Shown here: in pieces, positions 11,918-40,489 of the stretch
Numbering within the stretch: the first letter of the stretch is position 1
How the letters are laid out: each line of letters begins with the position of its first letter
DNA from: Magnetospirillum sp. SS-4
Lineage (GTDB): Bacteria > Pseudomonadota > Alphaproteobacteria > Rhodospirillales > Magnetospirillaceae
Reading direction: 5' to 3'
DNA length: 64,000 bases
NCBI RefSeq assembly: GCF_902729425.1
Contig: NZ_CACVCH010000049.1
Span: 1 to 64,000 of the forward strand
The notes under the pieces: generated by a model
Databases searched by the model: none
The model's input: only the letters and a program-made list of their open reading frames with translations
Told to the model about the DNA's origin: nothing
Position numbers and translations under genes: made by a program

Positions 11918-12126
11918 GGATGGGATGACTCGGAAAGGGTGCTCTGGAACGCGGCGCGGGACCTGGACGGCACGGGCGGCGGATGTTACCCCGGATTGCC
12001 GCCGGCAGGGAAGCCCGCTCTCCCCCCGGAACGGCGAGGCCTCCTTCCTGGAATCGCGGGGGGCGGTTGCGTCTCCTTCCGGCAATCTCTACCATCCGCC
12101 TTCATCTCGCAGACCAGGAGAGTTTC

Positions 12127-12600
12127 ATGGCCGATCCGCTGTTGCCCGCCGACCAGAGCCGCATCCAGCATCTGGTGACCGTCTTCGGACGCATCGGCGA
12201 GGAACGGATGAAGGATCTCGGCCTCTACAATCCCGCGCTTCAGGTGGAAGCGGTTGGCTTTCGCCGATGGAACGGCTGGCTGGCCGGGGTGCTGGTGACG
12301 CCGTGGTTCATGAATTTCGTCATGCTGCCCGCCGACGCCTCCACCAGCCTGGAGAACGCCGAGGTCGGCTCGCGCCGGCGCATCGACCTGCCCAAGGGGC
12401 AGGTGGTGTTCGTGATCGGCGAGGTCGACGATGTCGGCCCCTATCTGTCTTATTCCATTCATTCGCCCATGGGCCAGTTTCCCGATCACGCCTCGGCCTC
12501 CACCACCGCCTGGGCCGCCGTCGGTCCCTATTTCCTGGAGCCGGGTGAGGAACCGGGCGGCGAATGCGGCTTTGGCTGGGGTGTCAACAAAGGGCCATGA
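12127..12600 (+). CDS. hybE: [NiFe]-hydrogenase assembly chaperone HybE/HupJ family
   Basis: 157-residue protein matching the HybE/HupJ family. These proteins assist maturation of membrane-bound uptake hydrogenases, probably by binding the Tat-exported small subunit or large subunit precursor. The diagnostic core WNGWLAGVLVTPWFMNFVMLP (two segments around residues 45-65) is present, plus GEVDDVGPYLSYSIHSPM. An AGGAGA Shine-Dalgarno (12115-12120) precedes ATG 12127. No hydrogenase structural gene is adjacent; the soluble hox operon lies 36 kb away and is not the type this chaperone usually serves. The stop overlaps the next gene (ATGA). Confidence 0.85.
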   Translation: MADPLLPADQSRIQHLVTVFGRIGEERMKDLGLYNPALQVEAVGFRRWNGWLAGVLVTPWFMNFVMLPADASTSLENAEVGSRRRIDLPKGQVVFVIGEVDDVGPYLSYSIHSPMGQFPDHASASTTAWAAVGPYFLEPGEEPGGECGFGWGVNKGP

Positions 12601-13394: not shown

Positions 13395-14021
13395 CTATTC
13401 GATCAGGCCGCGGCGCAGGGCATAGGCGGTCAGTTCCGCCGAATTGTGCAGGTCCAGCTTCTGCATGATCTTGGTGCGGTGGGTTTCCACCGTCTTGACG
13501 GCGATGCCGAGTTCATCGGCGATCTCGCGATTCTTCAGCCCCTGGGCGATCAGCTTCAGAACTTCGCTCTCGCGCGGGGTCAGGGCGGCGTTGCCGTCGG
13601 TCTCCTCCAGGTATTCCCGGACCAGATCCGCCGACAGGCCCGGCCCCAGATAGGTCTTGCCGGCGCAGACCGCGGTGATGGCGGTCATCAGTTCGCCGTG
13701 GCCCAGCTTCTTCAGGGCGTAGCCGTCGGCTCCGGCGGCCAGCGCCTCGGCGACGCGGCGTTCGCAATTGGCGGTGGTCAGCACCAGCACCCTGACCTTG
13801 GGGGCCAACTGCTTGATGCGGCGGGTCGCCTCGACCCCGTCCAGTTCGGGCATGGACAGGTCCATCAGCACCACGTCGGGCAGCAGGGATTGGGTCAGGG
13901 CGATGGCGGCCTTGCCGTCCTCGGCCTCGCCGACCACGGCGACGTCGTCAGCCGCCAGCAGGGCCACCAGTCCCTGACGGACCAGCTGCTGATCCTCGGC
14001 AATAACAATGCGAACCGTCAC
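13395..14021 (-). CDS. NarL/LuxR-type two-component response regulator
   Basis: 208-residue response regulator. The receiver domain (residues 1-118) has the acidic pair E9/D10, phospho-acceptor Asp54 (VVLMDLSMPELDG) and a conserved Lys in YALKKLG. The C-terminal LuxR/GerE HTH (about 142-205) has LTPRESEVLKLIAQGLKNREIADELGIAVKTVETH, here split for reading as LTPRESEVLKLIAQG and KTVETHRTKIMQKL. A GGAGAG Shine-Dalgarno upstream of GTG 14021 decides the start. There is no sensor kinase nearby, so it is an orphan regulator in this window. It is convergent with the SUMF1-like gene. Confidence 0.92.
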   Translation of the reverse strand: MTVRIVIAEDQQLVRQGLVALLAADDVAVVGEAEDGKAAIALTQSLLPDVVLMDLSMPELDGVEATRRIKQLAPKVRVLVLTTANCERRVAEALAAGADGYALKKLGHGELMTAITAVCAGKTYLGPGLSADLVREYLEETDGNAALTPRESEVLKLIAQGLKNREIADELGIAVKTVETHRTKIMQKLDLHNSAELTAYALRRGLIE

Positions 14022-14081
14022 GTCAGCTCTCCTCGACACCCGCCAGGATCATCGCCGAGATATCCCCATACATCAAGGGTC

Positions 14082-14324
14082 CTAAGACGTTTGACCCGAC
14101 AGTTCCCCATATCGTCCGGCGATGGCGGCGAAACTGTCGTAGCGCCGGATGGTCTCATCCGACAGGGCGACGCCGTAATGGCTCTCCAGGGCCAGCATCA
14201 CCGCCAGATGGCCGACGCTGTCCCAGGCGGGATGGCGTCCCAGGCCGCTGTCGGCGGTTATGGAATCCGGCCGGCAGTCCAGGGCGGCGGCGACAAGAGA
14301 ACGGGGGGCGGGCAACTCGGTCAT
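14082..14324 (-). CDS. Acyl/peptidyl carrier protein
   Basis: 80-residue phosphopantetheine-binding carrier protein. The attachment serine is Ser36 in PAWDSVGHLAVMLALE, a variant of the classic DSL motif that resembles the carrier proteins of discrete amino-acid-activating systems. It lies directly downstream of, and overlaps by 4 bp, the free-standing adenylation gene (ATGA), so it is the likely acceptor of the adenylated substrate. It is the last gene of a six-gene minus-strand cluster. No phosphopantetheinyl transferase is present in the window. Confidence 0.87.
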   Translation of the reverse strand: MTELPAPRSLVAAALDCRPDSITADSGLGRHPAWDSVGHLAVMLALESHYGVALSDETIRRYDSFAAIAGRYGELSGQTS

Positions 14325-15766
14325 GACGATTCCTGGACCAGCCGCCGCAGGGCGGCGAGGTCGATCTTGTCGTTGGCGTTGCGCGGCATCTCCGCCACCG
14401 GGTGAATGGTACCGGGAACCGCGTGGGAATCCAGCCGCTTTTCCAGGGCGCGCCGCAGGCCGTCCACGTCCAGCCCGCCGGAGGCCGGGACGAAGGCGTG
14501 CAGCCGTCCGTCCACCAGTACGGTGGCGGCCTCGGGATGCCCCAGCGCCCGGATGGCGGCGTTGACCTCGTCCAGTTCCAGGCGATAGCCGCGAATCTTG
14601 ACCTGAGTGTCGCGGCGGTGCTGGAAGAACAGCCGGTTTCCGGCATCCCGCCGGACGATGTCGCCGGTGAGATAGGCCCGGATTTCGCGTCCATCCACCG
14701 TGATGGCGCGGAAGGCCTCGCGGGTGCGGACCTCGTCCAGCCAATAGCCGTCGGCCAACTGGGGGCCGCTGATGGCCAGTTCGTCGCCCTGGTCGGTGGG
14801 CAGCAAGTGCAGGCCCATGCCGGGAATGGCGGCGCCCAGTTCCACGGTGTCGCCGCTTCCGGACGTCGGCCCGGCTTCATTCAGCCGTGCCAGGGTGCAC
14901 GACACCGTCGCCTCGGTGGGGCCGTAGGTGTTGTGGATCGCGGCGGCGGGATTGGCGGCCAGCAGGGCGGCCGCCTGGGCGGCGTAGAGCGGTTCGCCGC
15001 AGAAGGTGAACAGGCGGACCGAAGCCATGCGGTCCGGGGTCAGGTCGCCGGCCTTGGCCATCATGTCGATCACGCTGGGCACCGAGTTCCAGATGGTCAG
15101 CCGCCGCGCCGCGACGAAGCGGCCCGGCAGCATGCGGTCCATCGCCGATTGCAGCGGATGCAGGGCGGCGCCCGAGCACAGCGCGCCATAGACGTCGAGC
15201 ACGCTGAGGTCGAAGCCGATATTGGGATGCTGCGACCAGCGGTCCCCCGGTCCCGGATTCATCGCCTCCAGCGCCCAGGCGGCATAGTGGTTCAGCGCAT
15301 GGCGAGGGATCATGACTCCCTTGGGCAGGCCGGTGCTGCCCGAGGTGAAGATGACGTAGGCCAGCCGGTGGGGCGGCCTGGGCGAAAACGGAGCGGCGGC
15401 CGGCGGCGGGGGCGGCATCGCCTCGCACCCCTCCGGCAGTGACAGCCCCCCGGTTTCCGACGCGATCACCACGTCCGGCCGGAACAGATCCAAGATGGTC
15501 TCCAGCCTGGCCGGAACCGAGGCGGCGTTGCAGGGAAGGTAATAGCCGCCGGCCATCAGGGTGGCAAACATGGCGGCATAGGCGTCCGTCCCCTGGGGCA
15601 GCAGGATCGCCACCCGGGGATGGGGGCCGAACCGGGCCAGCGCGGCGGCCATGCCGGCGGCGCGGGCGACGAGATCGCGGTAGCTCGCCGTTCCGCCCTG
15701 TTCCACCACCGCCGGGGCGTCGGGGTGGCGGGCGGCGACGTCGAGCAGGCGGCCGACCACGTCCAT
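14321..15766 (-). CDS. Free-standing amino-acid adenylation enzyme (DltA-like)
   Basis: 481-residue AMP-binding enzyme expected to activate a carboxylic or amino acid with ATP and load it on the neighbouring carrier protein. Core motifs are YVIFTSGSTGLPKGVM (A3), FTFCGEPL (typical of DltA-like enzymes), NTYGPTEATVSC (A5), YLTGDIVRRD (A7), KIRGYRLELDEVNAAI (A8) and NANDKIDLAAL (A10 Lys). No condensation or thioesterase domain is fused. The substrate cannot be read reliably here. It starts 1 bp after the stop of the AAC(3)-like gene, so the two are tightly coupled. Confidence 0.9.
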   Translation of the reverse strand: MDVVGRLLDVAARHPDAPAVVEQGGTASYRDLVARAAGMAAALARFGPHPRVAILLPQGTDAYAAMFATLMAGGYYLPCNAASVPARLETILDLFRPDVVIASETGGLSLPEGCEAMPPPPPAAAPFSPRPPHRLAYVIFTSGSTGLPKGVMIPRHALNHYAAWALEAMNPGPGDRWSQHPNIGFDLSVLDVYGALCSGAALHPLQSAMDRMLPGRFVAARRLTIWNSVPSVIDMMAKAGDLTPDRMASVRLFTFCGEPLYAAQAAALLAANPAAAIHNTYGPTEATVSCTLARLNEAGPTSGSGDTVELGAAIPGMGLHLLPTDQGDELAISGPQLADGYWLDEVRTREAFRAITVDGREIRAYLTGDIVRRDAGNRLFFQHRRDTQVKIRGYRLELDEVNAAIRALGHPEAATVLVDGRLHAFVPASGGLDVDGLRRALEKRLDSHAVPGTIHPVAEMPRNANDKIDLAALRRLVQESS

Positions 15767-15767
15767 G

Positions 15768-16523
15768 TCATTCCCTCCGGGTCAGGGCATGGGGATCGGC
15801 CGCCAGCAGGTCCATGGCGGCGGCGTGCAGGTCGGACAGCAGGCAGCAATGGCTGCCGCCGAAGGCGCAAGGGGCCGAGCGCAGTTGTCCCCGCCGGCTC
15901 AGTTCCCGCGCCGCCGGCTCGAAATCAGTGGCGATATCCTCGCCGGAACGGGCGAAATAGCGCAGCCGCACGGTCCGCTCGTGCCCGCCGGAATCGACCA
16001 CCCGCCGCTCCACCCAGACCCAGCGGCGATAGGGGACGTTCGCCAGCGCCTCCACATGGTGCAGGTAGGTGCAGCCCTCGGAAAAGCCGCAGCCCAGCAG
16101 CAGCAGCTTGAAGCCGCGACGCATCATGTGGTCGAAATCCGATCCCTCGCCCAGCGAGCTGCCGGGGTCGCTGTCGTCGAGCAGGCGGGAATCGGGGCCG
16201 ATGCCGGCGTGGTTGTGAATCGGGCACCGGCTGCGCCGGGCGCCGGGCAACTGGCGGACATGCTCGGACAGGGCGCCGGTGGCTTCGCCCGGACGGGTGC
16301 GGGGATCGTAGGGCAGGGCGGGGTCGAAGGTGTAGCTGGGCACCACCAGGCTGCCGGCGGCGCCGACCCGGTCTCGCAGCATCGCCGCCAGCCCGGCGGC
16401 GCCGCCCTCCAGGTCGCCGAACGACAACAGCCGCGAATGCACCGCCAGCCGGTCGCCGTCGGCGACGCCAAGCGCGTCGAGATGACGGGCAAGCTCAGCC
16501 CGGCCGGTCTTGGGCAGCGGCAT
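15768..16523 (-). CDS. AAC(3)-family N-acyltransferase-like protein
   Basis: 251-residue member of the aminoglycoside 3-N-acetyltransferase (antibiotic_NAT) fold. Seen are LAVHSRLLSFGDLEGG, SLVVPSYTFDPALPYDPRTRPGEATGALSEHVRQLPGARRS (core segment, with its key residues in FDP, TG and R), and HNHAGIGPDS. The family also includes many acyltransferases in surface-glycan and natural-product clusters, and this context favours such a role over antibiotic resistance. It overlaps the DUF4910 gene by 29 bp and abuts the adenylation gene. Transfer of the carrier-bound acyl group to an amino sugar is a reasonable inference. Confidence 0.82.
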   Translation of the reverse strand: MPLPKTGRAELARHLDALGVADGDRLAVHSRLLSFGDLEGGAAGLAAMLRDRVGAAGSLVVPSYTFDPALPYDPRTRPGEATGALSEHVRQLPGARRSRCPIHNHAGIGPDSRLLDDSDPGSSLGEGSDFDHMMRRGFKLLLLGCGFSEGCTYLHHVEALANVPYRRWVWVERRVVDSGGHERTVRLRYFARSGEDIATDFEPAARELSRRGQLRSAPCAFGGSHCCLLSDLHAAAMDLLAADPHALTRRE

Positions 16524-17820
16524 GATCGTCCTCGGGAACGAGAAGGCCGGCCCCGGCCAGGATGGCGGCCTGCTCGGCCAGCGGCATGACCCCCAGGCCG
16601 GAGCGCTCGGCGATTGCGATGAGGTCGCGGCGGCCGTCGGCCTGGTTCATCAGCCACCGCCGCGCCAGCAATTGCCGGTCGGCCGAGGAATCCGGCCTGG
16701 ACAGGGTGGGCGCCAGATCGTGGCGGGAATAGAACGGCTCGCCGAATGGCCGGGTATTGCGCCATGTCCGATTGGCCTCCAGCACCCGGCAGATATCAAG
16801 ACAGGCCGAGACCGCCCCGATCAGGGAATCGGCGGCGACATGGTCGAGATTGTCGTCCGAGGTATGGTATTCGGGCGATTCCTGGAAATAGCCGCGCATC
16901 AGCGCCGCCACCGGGAAATCATAGCCGGGCGAGCAATAATTGCGCTCGTCGGCACCGCGCGGGTCGAAGTCGAGCACCCGGTGGGGAATGCCGCCGTCGC
17001 GAAAGGCTGTCCGCGCCGCCCGCTCGGCCAGGGTGCCGCCCCGCTGCGGCAGTTTCAGGCTGAGAGGCTGACGGTCGCCGATATTGGTCAGCACGTATCC
17101 GGCCAGCAGGTGGCGGCGCAGGTGCTCGCCATGGCGCGACAGATAGGCGATCGAGCCGATATTTTCCGGCCCCAGCACGAAGCGGTAGGTCAGCCGCCGC
17201 CGGGGCAGCGCCGCCAGGGCGCGATGGAGGAAGGCCAGCACCAGCGGTCCCGACAGCTCGTTGTTGGCCATGGAGGGATGGCAGGTATAGGACGAGAACA
17301 GCACCTCGCCCTCCTCGTCGCCGGGCAGGACGCAATCCGACACCCGCATGACTCCGTCGATCAGGTCGGTGTCGACCGTCACCCGGTAGCGGCCCTCGGG
17401 CAGGGTGGCGCGCAGGGCGTCGGGCAGGCAGAACCCCCAGCGCGGGGCGTAATAGCTGGTGACGTAGGGGATGGCGTGGGGGCGGTCGGGCAGCGAGTGC
17501 AGGTGCGGTTGCAGGTCGGCCAGGGCCAGGGTGCCGCTGAACGGGTGGGAGTAATTGACCAGATGCAGGGTGTGGTCGCGGGCATCGAGGATGCGCCGGC
17601 CGGACGGGTCCTCGACGAAGGCCTGGCGGAACACCCATTCCCGGGGCACCTCCCAGTCCAGGATCGGGGTTCCGGTCGGAATGTCCCAGTGGGAGAGCGG
17701 CAGCAATTCACCCAGCATGTCGTGGGTTTGGCGCTGGCCCTCGCCGGTGATGCTGCGCATGATCGGCCACAGCCGGCGCAACCAGGATTCGACCTCGTCA
17801 GGGCTGGGCAGGCAGGTCAT
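16495..17820 (-). CDS. DUF4910 aminopeptidase-like protein with winged helix
   Basis: 441-residue protein resembling the DUF4910 family: a zinc-aminopeptidase-like domain (about residues 1-340) followed by a C-terminal winged-helix region (about 360-430, RRWLMNQADGRRDLIAIAER). Candidate metal residues are in YTCHPSMANNELSGP (His/Asn/Glu), RGADERNYCSPGYDFP (Asp/Glu) and YHTSDDNLDHV (His/Asp). Members occur in glycan and flagellin-modification clusters; the substrate is not established. ATG 17820 overlaps the 3' end of the hexapeptide gene by 23 bp. It lacks a signal peptide, so it is presumably cytosolic. Confidence 0.84.
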   Translation of the reverse strand: MTCLPSPDEVESWLRRLWPIMRSITGEGQRQTHDMLGELLPLSHWDIPTGTPILDWEVPREWVFRQAFVEDPSGRRILDARDHTLHLVNYSHPFSGTLALADLQPHLHSLPDRPHAIPYVTSYYAPRWGFCLPDALRATLPEGRYRVTVDTDLIDGVMRVSDCVLPGDEEGEVLFSSYTCHPSMANNELSGPLVLAFLHRALAALPRRRLTYRFVLGPENIGSIAYLSRHGEHLRRHLLAGYVLTNIGDRQPLSLKLPQRGGTLAERAARTAFRDGGIPHRVLDFDPRGADERNYCSPGYDFPVAALMRGYFQESPEYHTSDDNLDHVAADSLIGAVSACLDICRVLEANRTWRNTRPFGEPFYSRHDLAPTLSRPDSSADRQLLARRWLMNQADGRRDLIAIAERSGLGVMPLAEQAAILAGAGLLVPEDDHAAAQDRPG

Positions 17821-18532
17821 CGAATCCCCCGTCCAGGGCCATCAGCCGGTTGTCACGCTCGTTCGGCTTGAACTTGATGTCGGTGCCGATGCCGAACACC
17901 ACCACGTCGTCGGGAACCTCGCGGTCGACCACCAGGGCGTTGGCGGCGATGCGGACATTGCGGCCGACCCGGCTGCGGCCCAGGATGGCCGAGCCCGGCC
18001 CCATCCACAATCCGCCGGCGATGGTGGGGTAGTGGCCGTGATTGTGGCCGATGGTGCAGTTCTGGGTCAGTACGATGAAGGGACCGAATTCGCCATAGCC
18101 GACGACGCTGCCCAGGGCGTGCATGGGAAAGAAGAAATCGATCTCGTCGGTCCGGTAGAAGATGTTCAGGCAGCACTGGCTCTTCATGACGTAGAACAGG
18201 CAGTCCAGCAGGGCCTCCGGCGCCTGGGCCAGGAACAGCCGGCGCGAGAACGGGTGCAGCAGGCGGGTCAGGTGCTCGATGTTGAGCGGGTTGACCAGCG
18301 GCGTCCCATCCTCGCCCCGATAATAGCGGGCGGTGCAGAACGAGTGCTCGCGGGCGATCTTGGCGTGAACGTCGCGGAAGGTGTCGCGGTATCCGGCCAG
18401 CGCCCCGGCCACGCCGGGCAGCGGTCCCTGCCGTTCCATCAGGTGGCGGAAGACTTCCCACGCCGTCTCCTCCGGCCAGCGTCCCGGCTGGGCGTCGAGG
18501 GCCAGGGCGGACAGGTCACGGGATCGCGTCAC
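17798..18532 (-). CDS. Left-handed beta-helix acyltransferase-like protein
   Basis: 244-residue protein with an N-terminal helical region (1-125) like that of serine acetyltransferases and a C-terminal hexapeptide-repeat segment (about 140-225: VVGYGEFGPFIVLTQNCTIG, NHGHYPTIAGGLWMGPGSAILG, RVGRNVRIAANALVV). The HNHG motif, with His available for catalysis, supports acyl-CoA- or acyl-ACP-dependent O/N-acylation. Translation apparently starts at GTG 18532. The final segment (KFKPNERDNRLMALDGGFDD) is unusual. It overlaps the DUF4910 gene and belongs to the same operon. Confidence 0.78.
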   Translation of the reverse strand: MTRSRDLSALALDAQPGRWPEETAWEVFRHLMERQGPLPGVAGALAGYRDTFRDVHAKIAREHSFCTARYYRGEDGTPLVNPLNIEHLTRLLHPFSRRLFLAQAPEALLDCLFYVMKSQCCLNIFYRTDEIDFFFPMHALGSVVGYGEFGPFIVLTQNCTIGHNHGHYPTIAGGLWMGPGSAILGRSRVGRNVRIAANALVVDREVPDDVVVFGIGTDIKFKPNERDNRLMALDGGFDDLPAQP

Positions 18533-18571
18533 GGCATTGCTCCATCTTGTCCGCTGGCGGGGCTTGTCCGC

Positions 18572-19570
18572 TCATGGGGCCGCGCCCGGTCTGCGAAACA
18601 TCCAGAGATAGCATGGCAGTCCGTACATCACGCCCAGGTCGCAGCCGACCTCCTCCATGCCGATTCGCGACATCATGTCCCGAACGGTCCGCCTGCCCCG
18701 ACAATAGCGCAGACTGCCGCCGGTGGTAATCATCACTCCGTCCGGCGCGGGAAAATCGGAAAAGGCGAACAGGCCGCCGGGGCGCAGGCACTGGAACACC
18801 GCCCGCCCCAGCGGCGCCAGGTCCCGGAAGTAATTGGCGGCGCCGCAGCAGACGACCAGATCGGCCACCCGTCCTTCCAGTTCCGCGACCACGTCGCCGA
18901 CGGTCAGGGAATCGTACAGGTCGCGCCGACGCGCCCGTTCCAGCATGGATGCCGACAGGTCGATTCCGGCAAGGGTGCGGGCCAGCGGTCTCAGGTGGGG
19001 GGCGGCGAGTCCGGTGCCGCAGCAGGCGTCGACGATGTCCAGGTTTCCGTCCGGTTCCAGCCGGGGCGACAGGAACGCCAGGAACCTGTCGACGGCCATG
19101 TCGTGCAGGAAGACCTCGTCGTAGGTGTCCAGTCCGTCGCGGTATTTCTCCTCGATGGCGTGGCGCTCGATCCGCGCGGGAAGCTCCGGCCCCAGGCAGT
19201 GGGAGAACAGGCGGACGGCGCTGTCGCCGCGCCCGAGCCTGACCGACAGGGCCGCGAAATTGCCGAAAAAATCGTATGCCTGGGGATCATCCCGGAAGGC
19301 GTCGGTCAGGATCACCTCGGCGATGTCGGGATTGCCGAACCGGCAGCCGGCGATCCAGCGCCCGGCCAGGGCTTCGACATGTGCCTCGGGCGCGGCGACC
19401 ATGATGCGCAGGACCAGGGTCTGAAGGCCGAGGTCGAGAAGCGCCGGTGAATCCGGCTCGCCTCCGAACGCCTTGATGCAGGCCTCGAAGGCATCCACAT
19501 ATCGTCCGTCGAGGCACATCCCGGCTGCGGTGGCGAAGTCCGGGCGGATGTCCTGGCTTTCTTCCATCAT
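18572..19570 (-). CDS. SAM-dependent methyltransferase with helical N-terminus
   Basis: 332-residue protein. The N-terminal ~150 residues are helical and TPR-like (DAFEACIKAFGGEPDSPALLDLG). The C-terminal class I methyltransferase domain (about 150-325) has motif I VDACCGTGLAAPHL, an acidic residue in AGIDLSASML and motif IV VADLVVCCGAANYF. The architecture resembles TPR-methyltransferases found in glycan or lipid tailoring. It is the first gene of the minus-strand cluster; a GAGGGG Shine-Dalgarno precedes two consecutive ATGs (19570, 19567). The substrate is unknown. Confidence 0.85.
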   Translation of the reverse strand: MMEESQDIRPDFATAAGMCLDGRYVDAFEACIKAFGGEPDSPALLDLGLQTLVLRIMVAAPEAHVEALAGRWIAGCRFGNPDIAEVILTDAFRDDPQAYDFFGNFAALSVRLGRGDSAVRLFSHCLGPELPARIERHAIEEKYRDGLDTYDEVFLHDMAVDRFLAFLSPRLEPDGNLDIVDACCGTGLAAPHLRPLARTLAGIDLSASMLERARRRDLYDSLTVGDVVAELEGRVADLVVCCGAANYFRDLAPLGRAVFQCLRPGGLFAFSDFPAPDGVMITTGGSLRYCRGRRTVRDMMSRIGMEEVGCDLGVMYGLPCYLWMFRRPGAAP

Positions 19571-21388: not shown

Positions 21389-21650
21389 GCTTTCTGTCCT
21401 GGCGAAGCCCCGCCGGCAACCACGGTGAATGCCTCCGCGCCGGCCGCCGTGTCCATCTCCGTGGCGCCCTCCCCTGCGCCGGTTCGGAAAGCCATCGATT
21501 GATTCGCGGTTCCGTCGCCCTGTCGCGCGCTCCTTTACCCGACCGCTCTCGCGGCGGCGCCCTCGGAGTTGTCGCACTGCGAGATATCTGTTAGCTTGCG
21601 CCACAACGATTCCGGCCGAATTCGGCGCGGATTTCTGTTCCATCGACGGG
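21389..21650. other. Non-coding leader upstream of gyrA
   Basis: With the preceding terminator this makes a 319-bp stretch without a gene. An open frame in phase with gyrA extends upstream to 21429, but its Arg/Pro-rich product is unlike GyrA and it lacks a ribosome site, so it is treated as non-coding. A possible sigma70-like promoter is TTGTCG (21569-21574), 16-bp spacer, TTAGCT (21591-21596). This is a weak match. Confidence 0.35.
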
Positions 21651-24341
21651 ATGAACTCTTTGACAACGCCTCCTGCGTCGCCACAATTCGATATTACCCC
21701 GGTCACCATCGAAGACGAGATGAAGCGCTCCTATCTCGATTACGCCATGAGCGTGATCGTGAGCCGGGCGCTTCCCGACGTGCGCGACGGTCTGAAGCCG
21801 GTGCATCGCCGCATCCTCTTCGCCATGAAGGAGGCCGGATACGACTACAACAAGCCGTTCCGCAAGTCGGCCCGCATCGTCGGCGACGTCATGGGTAAGT
21901 ATCACCCGCACGGCGATTCCTCGATCTACGACGCCATGGTGCGCATGGCGCAGAACTTCTCCATGCGGCTGATGCTGATCGACGGCCAGGGCAATTTCGG
22001 GTCCATGGACGGCGACCCGCCGGCGGCCATGCGCTATACCGAGGCCCGGCTGGCGCGCTCGGGCCACGCCCTGATCGAGGACATCGACAAGGACACCGTC
22101 GATTTCCAGGCCAATTACGACGAATCGACGCACGAGCCGGTGGTGCTGCCGGCCCGCTTTCCCAATCTGCTGGTCAACGGCGCCGGCGGCATCGCCGTCG
22201 GCATGGCCACCAACATCCCGCCCCACAATCTGGGCGAGGTGATCGACGCCTGCTGCGCCTATATCGACGATCCCGAGGTGACGCCCGAGCGGCTGATGGA
22301 GTTGGTCCCCGGGCCGGACTTCCCCACCGGCGGCACCATTCTCGGCCGCTCCGGCATCCGTGCCGCCCAACTGACCGGGCGCGGTTCGGTGGTGATGCGC
22401 GCCCGCGTCCATATCGAGGACATCCGCAAGGACCGCGAGGCCATCGTCGTCACCGAGATGCCCTATCAGGTCAACAAGGCCCGCATGCTGGAACAGCTGG
22501 CCGAACTGGTGCGCGACAAGAAGATCGAGGGCATTTCCGACCTGCGCGACGAATCCGACCGCGACGGCGTCCGGGTGGTGATCGAGATCAAGCGGGACGC
22601 CATCGCCGACGTGGTGCTGGCCCAGCTCTACAAGTTCACCCCGCTTCAGACCAGCTTCGGCGTCAACTGCCTGGCGCTGAACGGCGGCCGGCCAATGATG
22701 ATGACCTTGAAGGACATCGTCAGGGCCTTCATCAATTTCCGGGAAGAGGTCATCACCCGGCGCACCATCTTCGAACTGGGCAAGGCCCGCGACCGCGCCC
22801 ACGTCCTGGCCGGGCTCGCCATCGCGGTGGCCAATATCGATCAGGTCATCGCCCTGATCCGCTCGGCCCCCGATCCCGCCACCGCCCGCGAGCAGCTGAT
22901 GGCCCGCGCCTGGCCGGTGGGCGACGTGGCGCCGCTGATCCAGCTGATCGACGAACCGGGGCGCGGCATCGCCGACGGCGCCTACAGGCTGTCGGAGATT
23001 CAGGCCAAGGCCATCCTGGATCTGCGCCTGCACCGCCTGACCGGGCTGGAGCGCGACAAGATCGGCGATGAACTGCGCGAGATCGGCCGCCAGATTCAGG
23101 AATACCTGGAAATCCTGTCGTCGCGGCCGCGTCTGTTCGAGGTGATGCGGGCCGAACTGCTGGAAATCCGCGAGCAGTTCGCCACGGCCCGGCGCACCAC
23201 CATCGAGGAGAACGAGTTCGAGGCCGACATCGAGGATCTCATCGCCCGCGAGGACATGGTGGTGACGGTGACCAACACCGGCTACATCAAGCGGGTGCCG
23301 CTGTCGGCCTATCGCGCCCAGAAGCGCGGCGGCAAGGGCCGTTCCGGCATGAACATCAAGGACGAGGACTTCCTCAGCCAGGTGTTCGTCGTCAACACCC
23401 ACACGCCGGTGCTGTTCTTCTCGTCGTCGGGCATCGCCTACAAGCTGAAGGTCTACCGCCTGCCGCTGGGCAATCCCCAGGCGCGCGGCAAGGCCATGGT
23501 CAACCTGCTGCCGCTGGACGAGGGCGAGACCATCTCCACCATCATGCCGCTGCCCGAGGATGAATCCACCTGGGGCGACCTGCATGTGGTGTTCACCACC
23601 TCGAACGGCGACGTCAGGCGCAACCTGCTGTCCGACTTCACCGAGGTCCGGGCCAACGGCAAGATCGCCATGAAGCTGTCGGACGGCGAACGGCTGATCG
23701 CGGTGCAGACCTGTTCCGAGACCGACGACATGCTGCTGGCGACCCGCATGGGCAAGGCCATCCGCTTTCCGGTTCCCGAGGTTCGGGTCTTCAAGGGCCG
23801 CGATTCCACCGGCGTTCGCGGCATCCGGCTGGAGGACGGGGACGAGGTCATCTCCATGTCCATCCTCCGCCATGTGGATTTCGAGTCCGAGACCCGCGAT
23901 TCCTACCTGCGCGGCGACCTGCCGGCCGACCAGTCCGAGAAGATGGCGGCGCAAGAGCAATATATCCTGACGGTCACCGAGAACGGCTTCGGCAAGCGCA
24001 CCTCGGCCTACGAGTACCGCATCACCGGCCGTGGCGGCCAGGGCATCGCCAATATCGACATGACCGACAAGACCGGTCCGGTGGTGGCCTCGTTCCCCGT
24101 CAATCATGAGGACGACATCATGCTGGTCAGCGACGGCGGCAAGCTGATCCGCATGCCGGTCGACGACATCCGCATCGTCGGCCGCCGCACCCAGGGCGTC
24201 ACCCTGCTGCGCACCGCCGAGGGCGAGCGGGTGGTGTCGGCGGCCAGGCTGTGCGACATCGCCGGCGGAAACGACGACGGCGAGGATGCCGGCGGGGACC
24301 TGGACGGTGACGAGGCCGTGGCGGGAGGCGAGGATGACTAG
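21651..24341 (+). CDS. gyrA: DNA gyrase subunit A
   Basis: 896-residue breakage-reunion subunit of the type II topoisomerase that introduces negative supercoils. The N-terminal domain has [20 protein letters not shown] and the catalytic Tyr in [10 protein letters not shown]. The quinolone-resistance region reads [17 protein letters not shown], keeping the Ser and Asp equivalent to E. coli Ser83/Asp87, so no target-site resistance is visible. The C-terminal beta-pinwheel includes the GyrA box [10 protein letters not shown]. An acidic tail ([16 protein letters not shown]) ends the protein. ATG 21651 gives [18 protein letters not shown]. The stop overlaps coaD. Confidence 0.97.
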
Positions 24342-29884: not shown

Positions 29885-30775
29885 TTAACAATGGTCCTTG
29901 ATGTTGAGGAAATGCAGCAACAGGTTTCGTTGCCGCAGCGAGGCGAGATAGCGCGCCCGGATCTGGGTGCAGCGCCGGCGGTCGAATTCTCCCAGCAGCA
30001 ACGTCACCAGGTCGTACGAGCCGTAGACCACGTCCAGCACCGCCGCGGCCTTGAGCAGGGCGTCGTCGCCATAGGCATCCAGCCGGGTGAAGTCGCGAAC
30101 GAAAATGGCGTCGGCCCACAGCAGCTGGCTCATGGGCAGAAACGGATTGGGCGGCTGGAACGGCCGGAACGGACGGCCGGCGCAATCGATCATCTTGTGC
30201 AGCACGAATCCCTGATCGCGCAGGAACACCTGGATGTCGCCGAACAGCGGCTGATCCCGGTAAAGCGGCATGAACTCGACTTCGCACTCGATCACCACGG
30301 TATCGGCCAGCTTGCCGGTGCCATGCCGCATGACCTCCAGCTCCGATCCCTGGACATCCAGCTTGATGTAATCCACTTCCAGGTCGTCGATATCGTCCAG
30401 GCGGGTGGTTTGCACCTCCTCGGACCGGACCACGCGGAAATTATCCTCGGCCAGGGTGGCGCCGATGGTGGAAAACAGGTCGATCACCTCGGGGTTGGGG
30501 AGCAGCAGTGAGCTGCACCCCGGATACCGGGTGACGTTGAACGTTGCCGGTTCGCCATTGCCCAGGAATACCGGCAGATAGCGATAGGGACCGGGACGGC
30601 CTTGCAGGCGCGCGAATTCCTCGGGATTGGGTTCGAAGCCGGTAACCGTCGCCAGGCCGCTTCCCAGCAATTTGTCGTAGCGTTCCTGGCCTTCGCTCAT
30701 GGCGCCGACGTCAACGATGCTGATCTGGGGAATTGGATTGTCGATGATGTCTTGAAAACTGGGTGACTTGGCCAT
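29885..30775 (-). CDS. FkbM family methyltransferase
   Basis: 296-residue SAM-dependent methyltransferase of the FkbM family, which O-methylates sugars and natural products. The SAM-binding start ISIVDVGAMSEGQ, the acidic residue in VTGFEPNPEEF and the family-typical IDDLEVDYIKLDVQGSELEV (read in pieces) are present. The C-terminal ~90 residues (FVRDFTRLDAYGDDALL and on) are specific. An AGGAGT ribosome site precedes ATG 30775. It is downstream of the deoxysugar operon on the same strand, so it may methylate the sugar made there. Confidence 0.88.
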   Translation of the reverse strand: MAKSPSFQDIIDNPIPQISIVDVGAMSEGQERYDKLLGSGLATVTGFEPNPEEFARLQGRPGPYRYLPVFLGNGEPATFNVTRYPGCSSLLLPNPEVIDLFSTIGATLAEDNFRVVRSEEVQTTRLDDIDDLEVDYIKLDVQGSELEVMRHGTGKLADTVVIECEVEFMPLYRDQPLFGDIQVFLRDQGFVLHKMIDCAGRPFRPFQPPNPFLPMSQLLWADAIFVRDFTRLDAYGDDALLKAAAVLDVVYGSYDLVTLLLGEFDRRRCTQIRARYLASLRQRNLLLHFLNIKDHC

Positions 30776-30946
30776 GCCGACTCCTGGTCAATTCCGGCGG
30801 CCGAACCGCGTCAGACTCATCCCATACTATCCGGAGCGGATCAAGTCGGGCCAGACTGGCGACGGGCTTGTTTCTCCTGGATACTTTCACCGACGGCGAA
30901 TGCCGGGGGAAGCGATTGTGGTATGCGGACGGCCATCGGCATCATG

Positions 30947-31864
30947 TCACTGGCAGGCGGCCAGTGTGCGGACGACCGCGACGCCCAGGGCGTGGTCGCC
31001 GGTTCCGCCGGCCGCCACTGCCGCCGCGAACAGGCGGACGGCGCGGGTCAGCGGCAATTCCGGCTCCACGGCCAGGGGCTCGCCGGGGCCGGCGGGCCAC
31101 GCGAAGCCGTTGGTGGGCGGGTGGCGGGTCAGCTTGTCGGCGGCGGTGTCGTCCAGCAGCAAGATGCCGCGTTCGCCATGCGCGGCGAAGCGGCGCACCC
31201 GGTGCTCCATCAGATTGCCGCAGCGGATGCGGGCCTCGATTCCATCGGCGAAGGTCAGGGTCAGCGCCACCAGGGCCCCCTCGCCACCGTCCATGTCGCG
31301 CCGCTCCTCGGTGCGGGCCGAGCAGGATCGCGGCGGCCGCCCCATCAGGTCCAGCGCCATGGCGACGTCGTGGGCGCCCCAGTCCCACAGCACCGGGGGC
31401 TCGCGGCGGAAGGGGCCGTGATTGCCGGCCTCGCCGCGAATGGCGCGCAGCGGCCCCAGCGAGGGTAGGGCGGCTTTCAGCACCGCCCAGGCCGGCTGGA
31501 ACAATTGGGTATGCTCGACCCAGACCAGCACCCCGGCGGCTTCGGCGGCGCGCGCCACCGCCTCGGCCTCGGCCAGGTCCAGGGTCAGCGGCTTTTCCAC
31601 CAGAACCGGCTTGCCGGCCCTGATCGCGGCCAGGGCGATCCCGGCATGGGTGGCGGGAGGGGTGGCGACGATGACCGCGTCCACGTCGTCGGCGGCGACG
31701 ACAGTCCGCCAATCGGGCTCGACGATGCAGCCCGGTGGTGCCAGGGACAGCGTCCCGGCGTTGCCGCTGGCGATGCGGACGAGGCGCAGGCCCGGCAGGC
31801 CGGCGATGGTGCGGATGTAATTGCGGCCCCAGCGCCCGGCTCCGATCAGGGCGAGGCGCACCAT
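30947..31864 (-). CDS. Gfo/Idh/MocA family oxidoreductase
   Basis: 305-residue NAD(P)-dependent dehydrogenase with the Rossmann motif LALIGAGRWGRNYIRTI and the catalytic EKPLTLD at about residues 93-99. The C-terminal domain has the family alpha/beta fold (VLWDWGAHDVAMALDLMG). In sugar operons such enzymes oxidise or reduce nucleotide-sugar carbons (for example C3 ketone reduction of deoxysugars). It lies 1 bp after the epimerase gene and is the last gene of the operon. Confidence 0.87.
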   Translation of the reverse strand: MVRLALIGAGRWGRNYIRTIAGLPGLRLVRIASGNAGTLSLAPPGCIVEPDWRTVVAADDVDAVIVATPPATHAGIALAAIRAGKPVLVEKPLTLDLAEAEAVARAAEAAGVLVWVEHTQLFQPAWAVLKAALPSLGPLRAIRGEAGNHGPFRREPPVLWDWGAHDVAMALDLMGRPPRSCSARTEERRDMDGGEGALVALTLTFADGIEARIRCGNLMEHRVRRFAAHGERGILLLDDTAADKLTRHPPTNGFAWPAGPGEPLAVEPELPLTRAVRLFAAAVAAGGTGDHALGVAVVRTLAACQ

Positions 31865-31865
31865 G

Positions 31866-32927
31866 CTATTGCTCGCCGGTATAGACGCCGTCGGCCCAGC
31901 CGAGGAAGCGCCGGAGGCCTTCGTCCAGGTCCACCGAGGGCTCGAACTTCAGTTGCAGCCGCGCCTTCCTGATGTCGGGACAGCGGCGGTTGGGTTCGTC
32001 GGCGGGGTAGGAATCAGGATATTCGATGATGTTGTAGGTCACCGGATTGCCCGACACCGTCTGGATGCGCTGGACCAGATCCACCATGGAAATCTCGGGC
32101 TTGGGATTGCCGATGTTGTAGGCCTCGCCGGGCACGCCCCTCAGGATCACCAGCAGGAAGCCCACCATGGCGTCGGTGATGTAGCAGAAGGTCCGGGTCT
32201 GGTTGCCCGAGCCGTAGACGTTGAGCGGCAATCCCGCCTTGATGCGGTTGGCGAAATTGGGCAGCACCCGGTAATCGGTCTCCTGCATGCCGGGGCCGAA
32301 CACGTTGAACGGGCGGATGGTGTTGGTGCTGGTGCCGTGCTCGCCGTGGAAGATGTAGCACAGGGTCTCGCCTACCCGCTTGGACTCGTCATAGCAGGCG
32401 CGCGGCCCCTGGCACGAGACGTGGCCGCGATAGCTTTCCGGGGTGGGGACGTGCTTGGGATCGGGATCGCCGTAGATCTCGGACGACGAGAAGAAGGTGA
32501 AGCGGGCCTTGTGGCTGGTCGCCAGTTCCAGCATCCGCCGGGTGCCGGTGATGGCCACCTCCAGCGTTTCCAGCGGATAGGCGCGGTAGTAGAACGGGCT
32601 GGCGATGCCGGCGGCGTGGATGACGTAGTCGAGCCGGCCCTTCCACTTCAGTGGCTGGATGACGTCGTGCTGGATGAACTGGGTGTGGGGATATTCGGCG
32701 ATCTGGGCGCCTTCCTTGCCGGCGGTGATCAGGTTGTCCGCCGCCACCAGCGTCACCGGCTTTTTCAGCACATGGGCGTTGAGATGGGCGAACACCTCCA
32801 TGAAATAGCGGCCGAGAAAGCCCCGCCCGCCGGTCAGCAGCACGGTCTTGCCGGCGAAGTCGTGGGCGGCATCGCCCAGGCGGTCGCAGATCTCGGCGAT
32901 GTCGGATGTCAGGAGGAACTCGGTCAT
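31866..32927 (-). CDS. Extended SDR nucleotide-sugar epimerase/decarboxylase
   Basis: 353-residue extended short-chain dehydrogenase. A ~25-residue N-terminal extension precedes the NAD motif VLLTGGRGFLGRYF. The active-site YxxxK reads CYDESKRVGE, with upstream Ser in FFSSSEIYGDPD. The sequence resembles UDP-glucuronate decarboxylase-type enzymes; the exact reaction is uncertain. Start and stop overlap the C-methyltransferase gene (TGATG at 32925-32929), so translation is coupled. Confidence 0.87.
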   Translation of the reverse strand: MTEFLLTSDIAEICDRLGDAAHDFAGKTVLLTGGRGFLGRYFMEVFAHLNAHVLKKPVTLVAADNLITAGKEGAQIAEYPHTQFIQHDVIQPLKWKGRLDYVIHAAGIASPFYYRAYPLETLEVAITGTRRMLELATSHKARFTFFSSSEIYGDPDPKHVPTPESYRGHVSCQGPRACYDESKRVGETLCYIFHGEHGTSTNTIRPFNVFGPGMQETDYRVLPNFANRIKAGLPLNVYGSGNQTRTFCYITDAMVGFLLVILRGVPGEAYNIGNPKPEISMVDLVQRIQTVSGNPVTYNIIEYPDSYPADEPNRRCPDIRKARLQLKFEPSVDLDEGLRRFLGWADGVYTGEQ

Positions 32928-34171
32928 CACACGACCTCGACCTTGGGAATGGGAATGATGAAGCGGCCGCCGGCGGCGGCGAAGGCGGCGTTCTTGTCGA
33001 TGATCGGACGGGCGAAGTTCCAGGCCAGGATCACCAGATAGTCCGGTTTCCTCTCGGCCAGGGCGGCCGAGGACAGCACCGGCACATGCATGCCCGGCGT
33101 GAACAGCCCCTGCTTCAGCGGGCTGTCGTCGACGATGAAGTCGACCAGTTCGGGGCCGATGCCGAAATGATACATCAAGGTGGTGGCCTTGGCCGGGGCG
33201 CCGAAGCCGGCGATGCGCTTGCCCTCGGCCTTGAGGCGCTTCAGCAGGCCGGACAGTTCGGCGCCCAGGGCGTCGATGTCGCGGGCGAAGGCGCGGAAGG
33301 TCCCGGCCTTGTCCAGGCCGAGCCGCTCTTCCTCGGCCAGGGCTGTTGCCACCGAATCTCCGACCTTGCGGGGGCCGCCCTTCAACTGGGCGATGCCGCG
33401 CAAGCTGCCGCCGTGGGAGTCCACCCGGATGGCCTCGATCAGCTCCATGCCGTGGGCCTTGAAGAAGCCCACCAGCGGCTTGACCGAGTGATAGTCCAGA
33501 TGCTCGTGATAGATGGTGTCGAACAGGGTGTCCCTGACCACGTCGGCCAGATAGGACACCTCGAAGACGAACACGCCGTCCGGGCTCAGCAGGCCGCGCA
33601 CGCCTTCGGCCACGCCGCCCAGGTCGTCGATATGGGCGAAGACGTTGTTGGCGGTGACGATGGCGGCCTTGCCCCGGCCGGCGACGATTTCCACCGCCAG
33701 ATCGGGACCGAAGAAGCCGCACAGGGTCTCGATGCCGCGCCGGGTGGCGTCGGCGGCGATCTCACGCGCCGGATCGATGCCCAGCACCCGCATGCCGGCC
33801 TTGGCGAAGAACGACAGCAAGGTGCCGTCATTGGAGCCGATGTCCAGCACCAGCCCGCCTGCGGGCGGCCGGAAGCGTTCCATCACGAAGGCGGCGTAGC
33901 TTTCGAAATGGCGCACGAACACCGGCGAGGTGCCCGAGACGTAGACGTAATGCTCGAACAGCACGCGGGCGTCGACCACGTCCAGCAACTGGACGTGGGC
34001 GCAATCCTCGCAGAAGAACACGTCCAGCGGAAACCGCTCCTGCGGCCGGTCCAGCGCCGAGGCCGGGACGAAGGCATTGGCCGGCGGCGTCGGCGCCAGG
34101 GCCAGCACCAGGGGCAGGCGGCGGCTGCCGCACAGCCGGCAGGTGTCGCGGCGGTGGTGGTCGGAGCTCAT
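32927..34171 (-). CDS. Sugar C-methyltransferase (TylCIII/NovU type)
   Basis: 414-residue SAM-dependent C-methyltransferase like those methylating C3 or C5 of dTDP-4-keto-6-deoxyhexoses to make branched sugars. The N-terminal zinc site has Cys pairs CRLCG and FFCEDCAHV. The SAM domain has LVLDIGSNDGTLLSFF, and the catalytic His/Glu region is YHEHLDYHS. The C-terminal domain has RIAGFGAPAKATTLMYHFG and a last block LVILAWNFARPI. This architecture (Methyltransf_13, 11/12, 14) is diagnostic. It overlaps the cupin gene by 4 bp. Confidence 0.9.
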   Translation of the reverse strand: MSSDHHRRDTCRLCGSRRLPLVLALAPTPPANAFVPASALDRPQERFPLDVFFCEDCAHVQLLDVVDARVLFEHYVYVSGTSPVFVRHFESYAAFVMERFRPPAGGLVLDIGSNDGTLLSFFAKAGMRVLGIDPAREIAADATRRGIETLCGFFGPDLAVEIVAGRGKAAIVTANNVFAHIDDLGGVAEGVRGLLSPDGVFVFEVSYLADVVRDTLFDTIYHEHLDYHSVKPLVGFFKAHGMELIEAIRVDSHGGSLRGIAQLKGGPRKVGDSVATALAEEERLGLDKAGTFRAFARDIDALGAELSGLLKRLKAEGKRIAGFGAPAKATTLMYHFGIGPELVDFIVDDSPLKQGLFTPGMHVPVLSSAALAERKPDYLVILAWNFARPIIDKNAAFAAAGGRFIIPIPKVEVV

Positions 34172-34635
34172 TTATCGTCCGGTTTCCACGAGGTCAGGCC
34201 CTCGGCGGCCAGCAGGTCGATGCGGACCACGTCGGCCTCGTAGGAGTCCTGGTCGCGGGAATTGCGCGACAGGGTCAGGAAGGTGGTGTCCTCGGGAAAC
34301 ACCATGCCGTGATCGACCATGGGCGGCGTGAACACCATCTCGCCCGCCTTGACCAGCAGCTGGGTCGGTGGCTCGGTCGAGCCGGTGGGGCGGTGCCAGT
34401 ACTCGATGGAGCCCGAGACCACGTAGCAGTAATGCCAGTCGGTCTTGTGATAGTGGTTGGCGCGCAAGGAACCTTTCTTCGATTCGATCAGCACCGCGCT
34501 TTTCATCAGCCGGTCCACCAGCGGCTGGATGGTGCCCCGCGCATCGGTGAAGGCCTTCTCCAGCTTGACCACCTTGTCGAAAGGCGGCCAGCTCGCCTGT
34601 TCCTCGGGGGTGACGGGATCGATATGGGCGGTCAT
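34168..34635 (-). CDS. Cupin-domain protein of the sugar operon
   Basis: 155-residue single cupin. Metal-binding residues are visible in SLRANHYHKTDWHYCYVVSG (His cluster) and in FTPPMVDHGMVFPED. Such cupins accompany nucleotide-sugar C-methyltransferases and epimerases and may act as isomerases or epimerases; I cannot name the reaction. It lies 21 bp after rmlB, with a GGAGAC-type ribosome site (34642-34647 on the + strand as GTCTCC). Confidence 0.8.
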   Translation of the reverse strand: MTAHIDPVTPEEQASWPPFDKVVKLEKAFTDARGTIQPLVDRLMKSAVLIESKKGSLRANHYHKTDWHYCYVVSGSIEYWHRPTGSTEPPTQLLVKAGEMVFTPPMVDHGMVFPEDTTFLTLSRNSRDQDSYEADVVRIDLLAAEGLTSWKPDDK

Positions 34636-34656
34636 GGGAGGTCTCCAGGGATTGGT

Positions 34657-35709
34657 TCAGGCGAGGCCGCGCCGCGTCCGGGCGGCGTTGCCCTCGGCGA
34701 TGGCGTCGCACCAGGAGCGGTTGTTCAGGTACCAGCCGATGGTGGAGGCCAGGCCGTCGGCCAGGGTCCAGGTCGGCGCCCAGCCCAGTTCGGTCTTCAG
34801 CTTGGTGATGTCGGTGGCGTAGCGCCGGTCATGGCCGGGGCGGTCCTTGACATGGGTGATCAGCGATTTGTGCGGCGCCCAAGCGACATCGGGTCGCAGC
34901 GCGTCGAAGGCGGAGCACAGCGTCAGCACCAGATCCATGTTGGTGGATTCGGCCTCGCCGCCGATGCAATAGGTCTCGCCGATGCGGCCACGGGCGGCGA
35001 TCAGCCGCAGCGCCCGGGCGTGATCCTCCACATGCAGCCAGTCCCTGATCTGGCCGCCGTCGCCATAGATGGGAATCGGCTTGCCCTCGGCCATGTTGAG
35101 GATAGTCAGCGGGATCAGCTTTTCCGGATATTGCCGGGGGCCGTAATTGTTCGAGCAATTGGTGATGACGGCCGGCAGGCCGTGGGTCTTGACCCAGGCC
35201 CGCACCAGCAGGTCGGCCGAGGCCTTGCTGGCGGCATAGGGCGAATTGGGCTGGTAGGGCGAGGTCTCGCGGAACATGTCGTCGGGGGCCAGCGAGCCGT
35301 AGACCTCGTCGGTGGAGACGTGGACGAAGCGGAAGCCGTCCCTGGCGGCGCCCTCCAGGCTCCGCCAATGGGTCAGTGCAACTTCCAGCAGCACGAAGGT
35401 GCCGACGATGTTGGTGGTGATGAATTCGCCGGCGCTGTCGATGGAGCGGTCCACATGGGACTCGGCCGCCAGATGGAACACCACGTCCGGCTTGAACTGG
35501 GTGAACAGGCGTTCCATGGCGGCGCGATCCGCGATGTCTTCCCGCTCGAAGCCGTGGCGGGGCTGGCCCAGCACGCCGTCCAGATTTTCCATCCGCCCGG
35601 CATAGGTCAGCTTGTCGACCGTCATCACCTGCCAGTCGGTTTCCGCCATCAGCTGGCGGACCAGGGCCGAGCCGATGAAGCCGGCCCCCCCCGTCACCAG
35701 TGCCCGCAT
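34657..35709 (-). CDS. rfbB: dTDP-glucose 4,6-dehydratase
   Basis: 350-residue RmlB-type extended SDR that makes dTDP-4-keto-6-deoxyglucose. The NAD motif is VTGGAGFIGSALV, the catalytic Asp-Glu is in HVSTDEVYGSL, and the catalytic YxxxK is in SPYAASKASADLLV. NCSNNYGPRQYPEKLIP and RPGHDRRYA are typical of the family. ATG 35709 overlaps the stop of the upstream epimerase (TGATG); a GTG at 35712 would add one residue. No rmlA (thymidylyltransferase) is present in the window. Confidence 0.95.
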   Translation of the reverse strand: MRALVTGGAGFIGSALVRQLMAETDWQVMTVDKLTYAGRMENLDGVLGQPRHGFEREDIADRAAMERLFTQFKPDVVFHLAAESHVDRSIDSAGEFITTNIVGTFVLLEVALTHWRSLEGAARDGFRFVHVSTDEVYGSLAPDDMFRETSPYQPNSPYAASKASADLLVRAWVKTHGLPAVITNCSNNYGPRQYPEKLIPLTILNMAEGKPIPIYGDGGQIRDWLHVEDHARALRLIAARGRIGETYCIGGEAESTNMDLVLTLCSAFDALRPDVAWAPHKSLITHVKDRPGHDRRYATDITKLKTELGWAPTWTLADGLASTIGWYLNNRSWCDAIAEGNAARTRRGLA

Positions 35710-36653: not shown

Positions 36654-36657
36654 GCTC

Positions 36658-40368: not shown

Positions 40369-40489
40369 GGTGGCCTCACGATTTCGGGGATGGGCGGCCG
40401 TGGGGCCTGTCACCTCGCCTTCCATCCTTACCACAAAAGGCCCTTTCCTGGCGACCGTGGCGAACGGCGCGCCCCACATGCCGTCCTGG

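Follow-up and report, generated by a model that had tools for sequence, protein, structure and literature searches.

What do a stand-alone amino acid-activating enzyme and a carrier protein do in a gene cluster that encodes no machinery for peptide bond formation or product release, and where might the activated acid go? This question is raised by six genes at positions 14082-19570 of a 64,000-nucleotide stretch of Magnetospirillum sp. SS-4 (contig NZ_CACVCH010000049.1; the whole stretch is called the window below). Besides the adenylation enzyme and the carrier, they encode an AAC(3)-like acyltransferase and a protein of the DUF4910 family. We give even chances to the idea that these four genes form the core of a module that exchanges the N-acyl group on an amino sugar of the flagellin glycan; the likeliest such sugar is pseudaminic acid or one of its precursors. 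In this reading, the acetyl group of the flagellar sugar would probably be replaced by an activated amino acid.

All six reading frames are open on the minus strand, where a first-pass annotation of the window had placed them. From the upstream end, they encode a class I S-adenosylmethionine (SAM) methyltransferase with an N-terminal extension of ∼150 amino acids (18572..19570; Pfam Methyltransf_23/11/25); a hexapeptide (left-handed beta-helix) acyltransferase-like protein, similar to serine acetyltransferases and starting at GTG (17798..18532; weak Pfam and NCBIfam matches); a DUF4910+DUF2172+HTH_47 protein of the Cj1295/CA_C2195 family, which we propose to be a sugar N-deacylase (16495..17820; Pfam and a structure model); an N-acyltransferase of the AAC(3) family (15768..16523; Pfam Antibiotic_NAT, E 1e-33); the stand-alone adenylation enzyme (14321..15766; Pfam AMP-binding E 6e-59); and an acyl/peptidyl carrier protein with its phosphopantetheine serine at S36 (14082..14324; WDSVGHL motif in the translation). 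The hexapeptide and DUF4910 genes overlap by 23 bp, the DUF4910 and AAC(3) genes by 29 bp and, as annotated, the adenylation and carrier genes by 4 bp, while gaps of 39 bp and 1 bp separate the methyltransferase from the hexapeptide gene and the AAC(3) gene from the adenylation gene; the six genes are therefore likely to form a single transcription unit. GC content at third codon positions was 0.83-0.89 in the five longer frames (the gene caller output did not include the short carrier gene). At E 0.001 we found no condensation or thioesterase domain in the six proteins, again as annotated, which sets them apart from nonribosomal peptide synthetases with their condensation and release domains.

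We then asked how much of this unit is conserved, running tblastn with the six proteins against 111 loci and adding profile searches. DUF4910, AAC(3) and adenylation genes occur together in three other genomes of the genus (G001, G003 and G007), in G132, in a genome of the same family (G048), in the Kiloniellales locus L038 and in locus L036, and carrier genes stand at the module in G001, G007, G132, G048 and L038. More distant AMP-binding enzymes accompany DUF4910 and AAC(3) in other genomes, for example in G011. The first-pass annotation had staked its reading on co-occurrence of all six families elsewhere. This expectation was borne out for DUF4910, AAC(3), the adenylation enzyme and usually the carrier, only in part for the hexapeptide protein, and at no module for the methyltransferase, whose homologues in same-genus genomes lie elsewhere. 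We therefore rejected a conserved six-gene unit in favor of a four-gene core with accessories, the methyltransferase being one of these. Hexapeptide copies at the module are 79% identical in G007 and 70% in G001, and the G003 module is without one. The hexapeptide protein itself scored below the cut-offs of Pfam (23.6 of 27 bits) and of the NCBIfam models EpsC and CysE (E 3e-12 and 1e-8), with weak PDB matches to serine acetyltransferases; its H138 is invariant in 4/4 aligned sequences, and its structure model (predicted local distance difference test, pLDDT, 55) was too poor for a fold search.

The association of DUF4910 with AAC(3) extends beyond close relatives. Among 149 genomes, including the window's own, DUF4910 was found in 38 and Antibiotic_NAT in 39, with both in 25 against ∼10 expected (Fisher p 1e-9); 21 of the 51 Antibiotic_NAT places listed are within 3 kb of a DUF4910 place and 27 are within 12 kb. 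DUF4910 proteins are widespread: in one scan, at least 572 of the 592 candidate stretches listed encode a DUF4910 relative, the nearest named one being an uncultured Magnetospirillum (L032, part of the same contig as G007), in a scan that may omit the window's own record. For neighborhood counts we took the best 80 of the 572 confirmed loci, which are related to one another and were not chosen by their neighbors; in 14 of them the stretch falls short of 10 kb, so some neighbors are cut off. Of the 25 loci that have AAC(3) within 5 kb, 15 also have a gene for acyl supply (adenylation, FkbH or carrier) no more than 6 kb away, versus 4 of the 55 without AAC(3) at that distance (p 1e-6), counts made with profiles built partly from loci later counted. 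For FkbH by itself, the numbers were 4/25 and 1/55. A tree of 81 DUF4910 proteins requires no fewer than 12 changes in the AAC(3) state.

The adenylation enzyme matched TIGR01733 with 287.7 of 317.4 bits (E 1e-85). Its ten-residue pocket code, read by placing positions from GrsA numbering on alignments, is DLLNTCTVSK and is identical in seven clusters (the window, G001, G003, G007, G132, L036 and L038). Other DUF4910 loci carry DVSHHSMIEK (L126) or DPFFLTMI[IV]K (L118 and L125), and the codes in L094, L120 and L123 are without the Asp expected for amino acids, which the window enzyme has. The window enzyme resembles DltA (7vhv; code DLMVFCTVAK, 6/10 shared when read by eye with the last Lys assumed) in several pocket residues and in the Cys that precedes the GE motif, suggesting that its likely substrate is an alpha-amino acid that is small or small and polar. 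The arrangement of a stand-alone adenylation enzyme with a carrier is that of DltA/DltC; unlike there, an AAC(3)-like enzyme would take over the acyl group. We rejected a Dlt role in teichoic acid D-alanylation: the enzyme stayed under the cut-off of both DltA models (221.3 of 476 and 214.4 of 559.85 bits), and no DltD match was found in the one genome searched, its own. Among the candidates scored in 385 genomes of the class, at most four per genome, the window's own copy was the one adenylation enzyme to reach E 1e-95. The carrier had no Pfam match and a weak NCBIfam acyl carrier protein match (E 3e-4, 20.7 of 72 bits); its W-D-S motif is invariant in 18/18 aligned rows including the window, as are D35-S36. 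As a side observation, L036 (4949-11290) has a formyltransferase gene between the adenylation and DUF4910 genes, plus a class III aminotransferase; this locus has 63% GC, and its Mesoflavibacter label is doubtful.

The AAC(3)-like protein belongs to the Antibiotic_NAT family, scoring below every NCBIfam cut-off for resistance enzymes (at best 98.9 of 270 bits), which separates it from curated aminoglycoside AAC(3) enzymes. H155 is kept in 37/39 aligned rows and E158 in 39/39, the window included. Its likely position in the pathway is indicated by domain fusions. In L126, a single 1417-residue protein adjoining DUF4910 has the order formyltransferase-AMP-binding-carrier-Antibiotic_NAT, which puts AAC(3) at the point where the assembly line hands over its product. 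Antibiotic_NAT is fused to part of DUF4910 in L122 (profile positions 3-130 of 247). FkbH domains make glyceryl-carrier thioesters, and Antibiotic_NAT-FkbH fusions adjoin DUF4910 in L044, L100 and L110, where a carrier profile (although not Pfam PP-binding) matched in the same or the next frame; TylF-type O-methyltransferases are encoded beside the fusions of L100 and L110. Together, these fusions suggest an order of events in acyl transfer.

All three domains of the DUF4910 protein scored above the Pfam cut-offs (DUF4910, 259.6 bits; an inserted DUF2172, 110.2 bits; a C-terminal HTH_47, 42.3 bits), which makes it a member of the CA_C2195-Cj1295 family. Its AlphaFold2 model (pLDDT 91.3) was closest in the PDB to 3k9t (template modeling scores 0.89/0.93), that is, Clostridium acetobutylicum CA_C2195, which has the same three domains and aligns over 404 query residues (E 9e-83); M28 aminopeptidases came next. 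His181, Glu219, Asp291, Glu292 and His319 are conserved in 103-106 of 107 aligned rows. The first-pass annotation had called the function of DUF4910 unknown; this overlooks earlier work on a Cj1295 mutant, the CA_C2195 structure and gene neighborhoods, although we found no assigned chemistry in the literature searched. Second, divergent DUF4910 genes also occur in two of the relatives, near Maf in G007 (L113, 5708-7042) and as a convergent pair on contig C522 of G001 (L115, 7725-11491).

The neighbors of the module suggest where the amino acid might go. Maf glycosyltransferases (PF20157, PF01973) put nonulosonic acids on flagellin. In G001, G003 and G007, the three other same-genus genomes with the identical pocket, Maf is the next gene to the module: by simple gene calls, in G001 it shares 8 bp with the hexapeptide gene, in G007 it follows the carrier gene at a distance of 48 bp, co-directional in both cases, and in G003 it is convergent with the adenylation gene. 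In G011, a fourth genome of the genus, the AMP-binding enzyme that accompanies DUF4910 and AAC(3) is a different one, and a match to Maf lies ∼8 kb from AAC(3). Maf and flagellin genes surround the module within a 19-kb stretch in L038, a flagellin gene lies 1.8 kb from the module of G048 (L117), and a Flagellin_N protein is encoded 7.7 kb from DUF4910 in Riflebacteria L044. The window's own genome encodes PseB (483.2 bits, cut-off 407.75) and PseI (499.5 bits, cut-off 340.25), and contig C69, separate from the window, holds a Maf together with flagellin-type genes. This is consistent with the presence of a pseudaminic acid pathway and Maf in the genome, PseB and PseI being the pathway enzymes covered. 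Separately, near flagellin- or hook-type genes of two genomes (L160, 4545-6296; L117, 12570-14321), we noted 583-residue TPR proteins with a weak heptosyltransferase match, which are perhaps another flagellin glycosyltransferase.

The closest described relative of the module, likened by description, is the Cj1295-Cj1302 region of Campylobacter jejuni. From family descriptions, we take Cj1295 to match DUF4910, Cj1296/7 to be AAC(3)-like, Cj1299 a carrier and Cj1300 a methyltransferase; DUF4910, an AAC(3)-like enzyme and a carrier are likewise found together in the window. When Cj1295 is lost, the pseudaminic acid of flagellin no longer carries a 2,3-di-O-methylglyceroyl amide at C5; the authors' proposal was that the protein takes the acetyl group off C5, and they list the adjacent Cj1296/7 as an N-acetyltransferase in Table 1 (PMC3068675). 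A DUF4910-type protein is thus needed there for an N-acyl group other than acetyl at C5. The supply of the acyl group differs, being FkbH-type in Campylobacter and an adenylation enzyme in the window, which has no FkbH match. Cj1302 encodes an FkbH domain; in strain 12664, where the glyceroyl group is missing from the flagella, it is a pseudogene (PMC7099621). By analogy, the simplest scheme common to Campylobacter and the window would be acetyl off, new acyl on.

Other partial parallels come from three further papers. CA_C2195 lies in a nonulosonate-type neighborhood with carrier, MAF_flag10-annotated and aminosugar N-acetyltransferase genes (PMC4000134, Table 2); the same table has an ATP-grasp aminoacyl ligase and no adenylation enzyme. 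In the peptidylamido flagellar glycan of C. difficile RT027, amino acids are amide-linked to a flagellar amino sugar, and a putative acyltransferase and a D-alanine ligase gene are near (PMC5207245); by this description, the target is Fuc3N in a rhamnose glycan, unlike that proposed for the window. Aeromonas group II flagellar glycosylation islands hold a carrier, an AMP-dependent synthetase and Maf beside pse genes, with LuxC/LuxE and a 3-oxoacyl-ACP reductase in addition, which the authors read as fatty-acid related (PMC7874193); the text of that paper contains neither aminopeptidase nor Cj1295 as a term, and DUF4910 was not looked for in it. For the combination of adenylation enzyme, carrier, AAC(3) and DUF4910, we found no description in the literature searched, which included few subscription papers.

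From the gene content, linkage, fusions and genomic context that we observed, we infer the following reactions, sugar, amino acid and transfer to flagellin. The adenylation enzyme, whose family function is established and whose pocket is related to those of small-residue and D-Ala enzymes, would activate an alpha-amino acid and load the carrier. The DUF4910 protein, with its metallopeptidase-like fold, would strip the acetyl group inherited from UDP-N-acetylglucosamine (UDP-GlcNAc) and free the amine, a step that we propose on the strength of the Cj1295 mutant phenotype, the fold and pathway logic. The AAC(3)-like enzyme would move the aminoacyl group from the carrier to the freed amine, as the fusions suggest; the hexapeptide enzyme and the methyltransferase would probably add further modifications to the sugar or its new acyl group, and Maf would put the modified cytidine monophosphate-activated sugar on flagellin. 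The module would thus parallel the glyceroyl module of Campylobacter, with an amino acid in place of the acyl group that an FkbH-domain protein probably provides there. The first-pass annotation had anticipated activation of an acid, carrier loading and transfer to an amino sugar, possibly of a surface glycan; this holds in outline but was incomplete, and its target can now be specified further, a nonulosonic-acid glycan on flagellin being the likeliest.

Several findings weigh against this scheme. The first concerns the site of the DUF4910 protein. The zinc ligands His189, Asp195 and His324 of 3k9t correspond to His181, Asn187 and His319 here, and we therefore file the protein in its sequence family only and not as a zinc enzyme; the position of the ligand Asp is Asn in 92 of 107 aligned rows and Asp in 12. 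The M28 catalytic Asp and Glu are replaced by Ser183 and Pro218 in the same alignment, which places the protein outside Peptidase M28; Glu219, adjoining Pro218, is kept in 103/107 rows. By the residue roles given in PMC4000134, CA_C2195 is also without the catalytic Asp and Glu. Hydrolysis is thus not assured; it is plausible only, and would need an unusual site. The main rival keeps the same pathway and makes DUF4910 a transacylase or a non-hydrolytic lid or scaffold for AAC(3) rather than a deacetylase, for which the missing catalytic residues and the Asn at the ligand position speak; transacylation is also among the suggestions of the CA_C2195 authors (PMC4000134, section 10). The AAC(3)-DUF4910 fusion of L122, which is partial, fits a partnership of this kind. 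A second transferase is not needed, however, because AAC(3) keeps its conserved His and Glu and sits behind a carrier domain in L126. Moreover, if the sugar starts from UDP-GlcNAc, an N-acyl group other than acetyl at C5 requires that the acetyl be removed somewhere, and we regard this rival as unlikely.

A further set of observations concerns the target. We found no Maf, NeuB/PseI or flagellin gene in the window itself, and the 80 DUF4910 stretches hold NeuB in only 32, Maf in 3 and flagellin in 1 (the flagellin profile behind the last count missed L044), with neither Maf nor NeuB in 46. Ten kilobases from the module lies a minus-strand nucleotide-sugar locus (29885-37092) encoding an FkbM methyltransferase, a Gfo/Idh oxidoreductase, two epimerases, an RmlB-like dehydratase, a C-methyltransferase (Methyltransf_13/14), a cupin and FdtA. 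The acceptor could then be an amino sugar of lipopolysaccharide or another surface polysaccharide, such as the product of these genes, instead of one on flagellin; other DUF4910 loci are read as surface polysaccharide loci in PMC4000134. This alternative is weakened by the lack of an aminotransferase among the nine proteins scanned at the deoxysugar locus and by the adjacency of Maf to the module in three same-genus relatives, and we consider it rather doubtful.

The flagellin-sugar exchange scheme is also strained by variation among the loci. No AAC(3) lies within 5 kb in 55 of the 80 DUF4910 loci; the 29-bp overlap, which is present as the first-pass annotation described, is for this reason no proof by itself of the obligate partnership read into it. 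An independent-pairs test of AAC(3) against donor genes was not significant (median p 0.5, five supported pairs; on average, 2.4 pairs went the same way, 0.0 the opposite way and 2.6 showed no difference). The G048 enzyme has a different code (DLIVYCAVSK), and a recognizable carrier gene was not seen at L036 or at the G003 locus (L112, 10814-14191), which does have the adenylation gene and Maf. In Campylobacter, strain 12661 is without the glyceroyl group as well, yet cj1301 and not cj1302 is reported lost in that strain (PMC7099621).

An operon for tailoring of, or resistance to, a small molecule (nonribosomal-peptide-like or aminoglycoside-like), unrelated to surface sugars, would account for a stand-alone adenylation enzyme with a carrier and for the AAC(3) fold. 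This is very unlikely in view of the absence of condensation and thioesterase domains, the AAC(3) score far below all resistance cut-offs and the flagellar and nonulosonate context. The module is flanked by a response regulator gene (13395-14039) and gyrA (21429-24341), with lower GC at 20-22 kb; in G008, G010 and G016, whose genomes are assembled into one or two contigs, >1 Mb separates the same two genes, which places the module at a rearrangement or assembly junction. That it is a decayed or misassembled, functionless copy, as this junction and the lack of an adjacent Maf might suggest, is highly improbable given six open frames, five of them with gene-like third-position GC, a Maf elsewhere in the genome and a DUF4910 protein 73-80% identical to those of G001, G003 and G007.

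Elsewhere in the window, a 1108-residue TPR-CHAT-domain protein is encoded next to the sugar locus (37153-40479, minus strand), a HybE-type [NiFe]-hydrogenase chaperone gene lies at 11983-12600 (plus strand), and hydrogenase-like genes were recognized by eye at 50-54 kb, ∼40 kb from the HybE-type gene.

More broadly, and tentatively, DUF4910 and AAC(3) may together serve quite generally to exchange N-acyl groups on the nonulosonates of bacteria and on related amino sugars, DUF4910 taking the acetyl group off and AAC(3) putting a new acyl group on, with an interchangeable donor; the window would hold the DLLNTCTVSK version of this cassette, which puts an amino acid onto flagellin. FkbH would supply glycerate, adenylation enzymes with varied pockets would supply amino acids, and formyltransferase-adenylation lines would supply formyl-amino acids. 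If true, the exchange model would explain the Cj1295 phenotype, bring enzymes with the AAC(3) fold into the tailoring of surface sugars and make the acyl group on such sugars predictable from the neighboring donor gene. Overall, the module suggests a testable job for the uncharacterized DUF4910 family.

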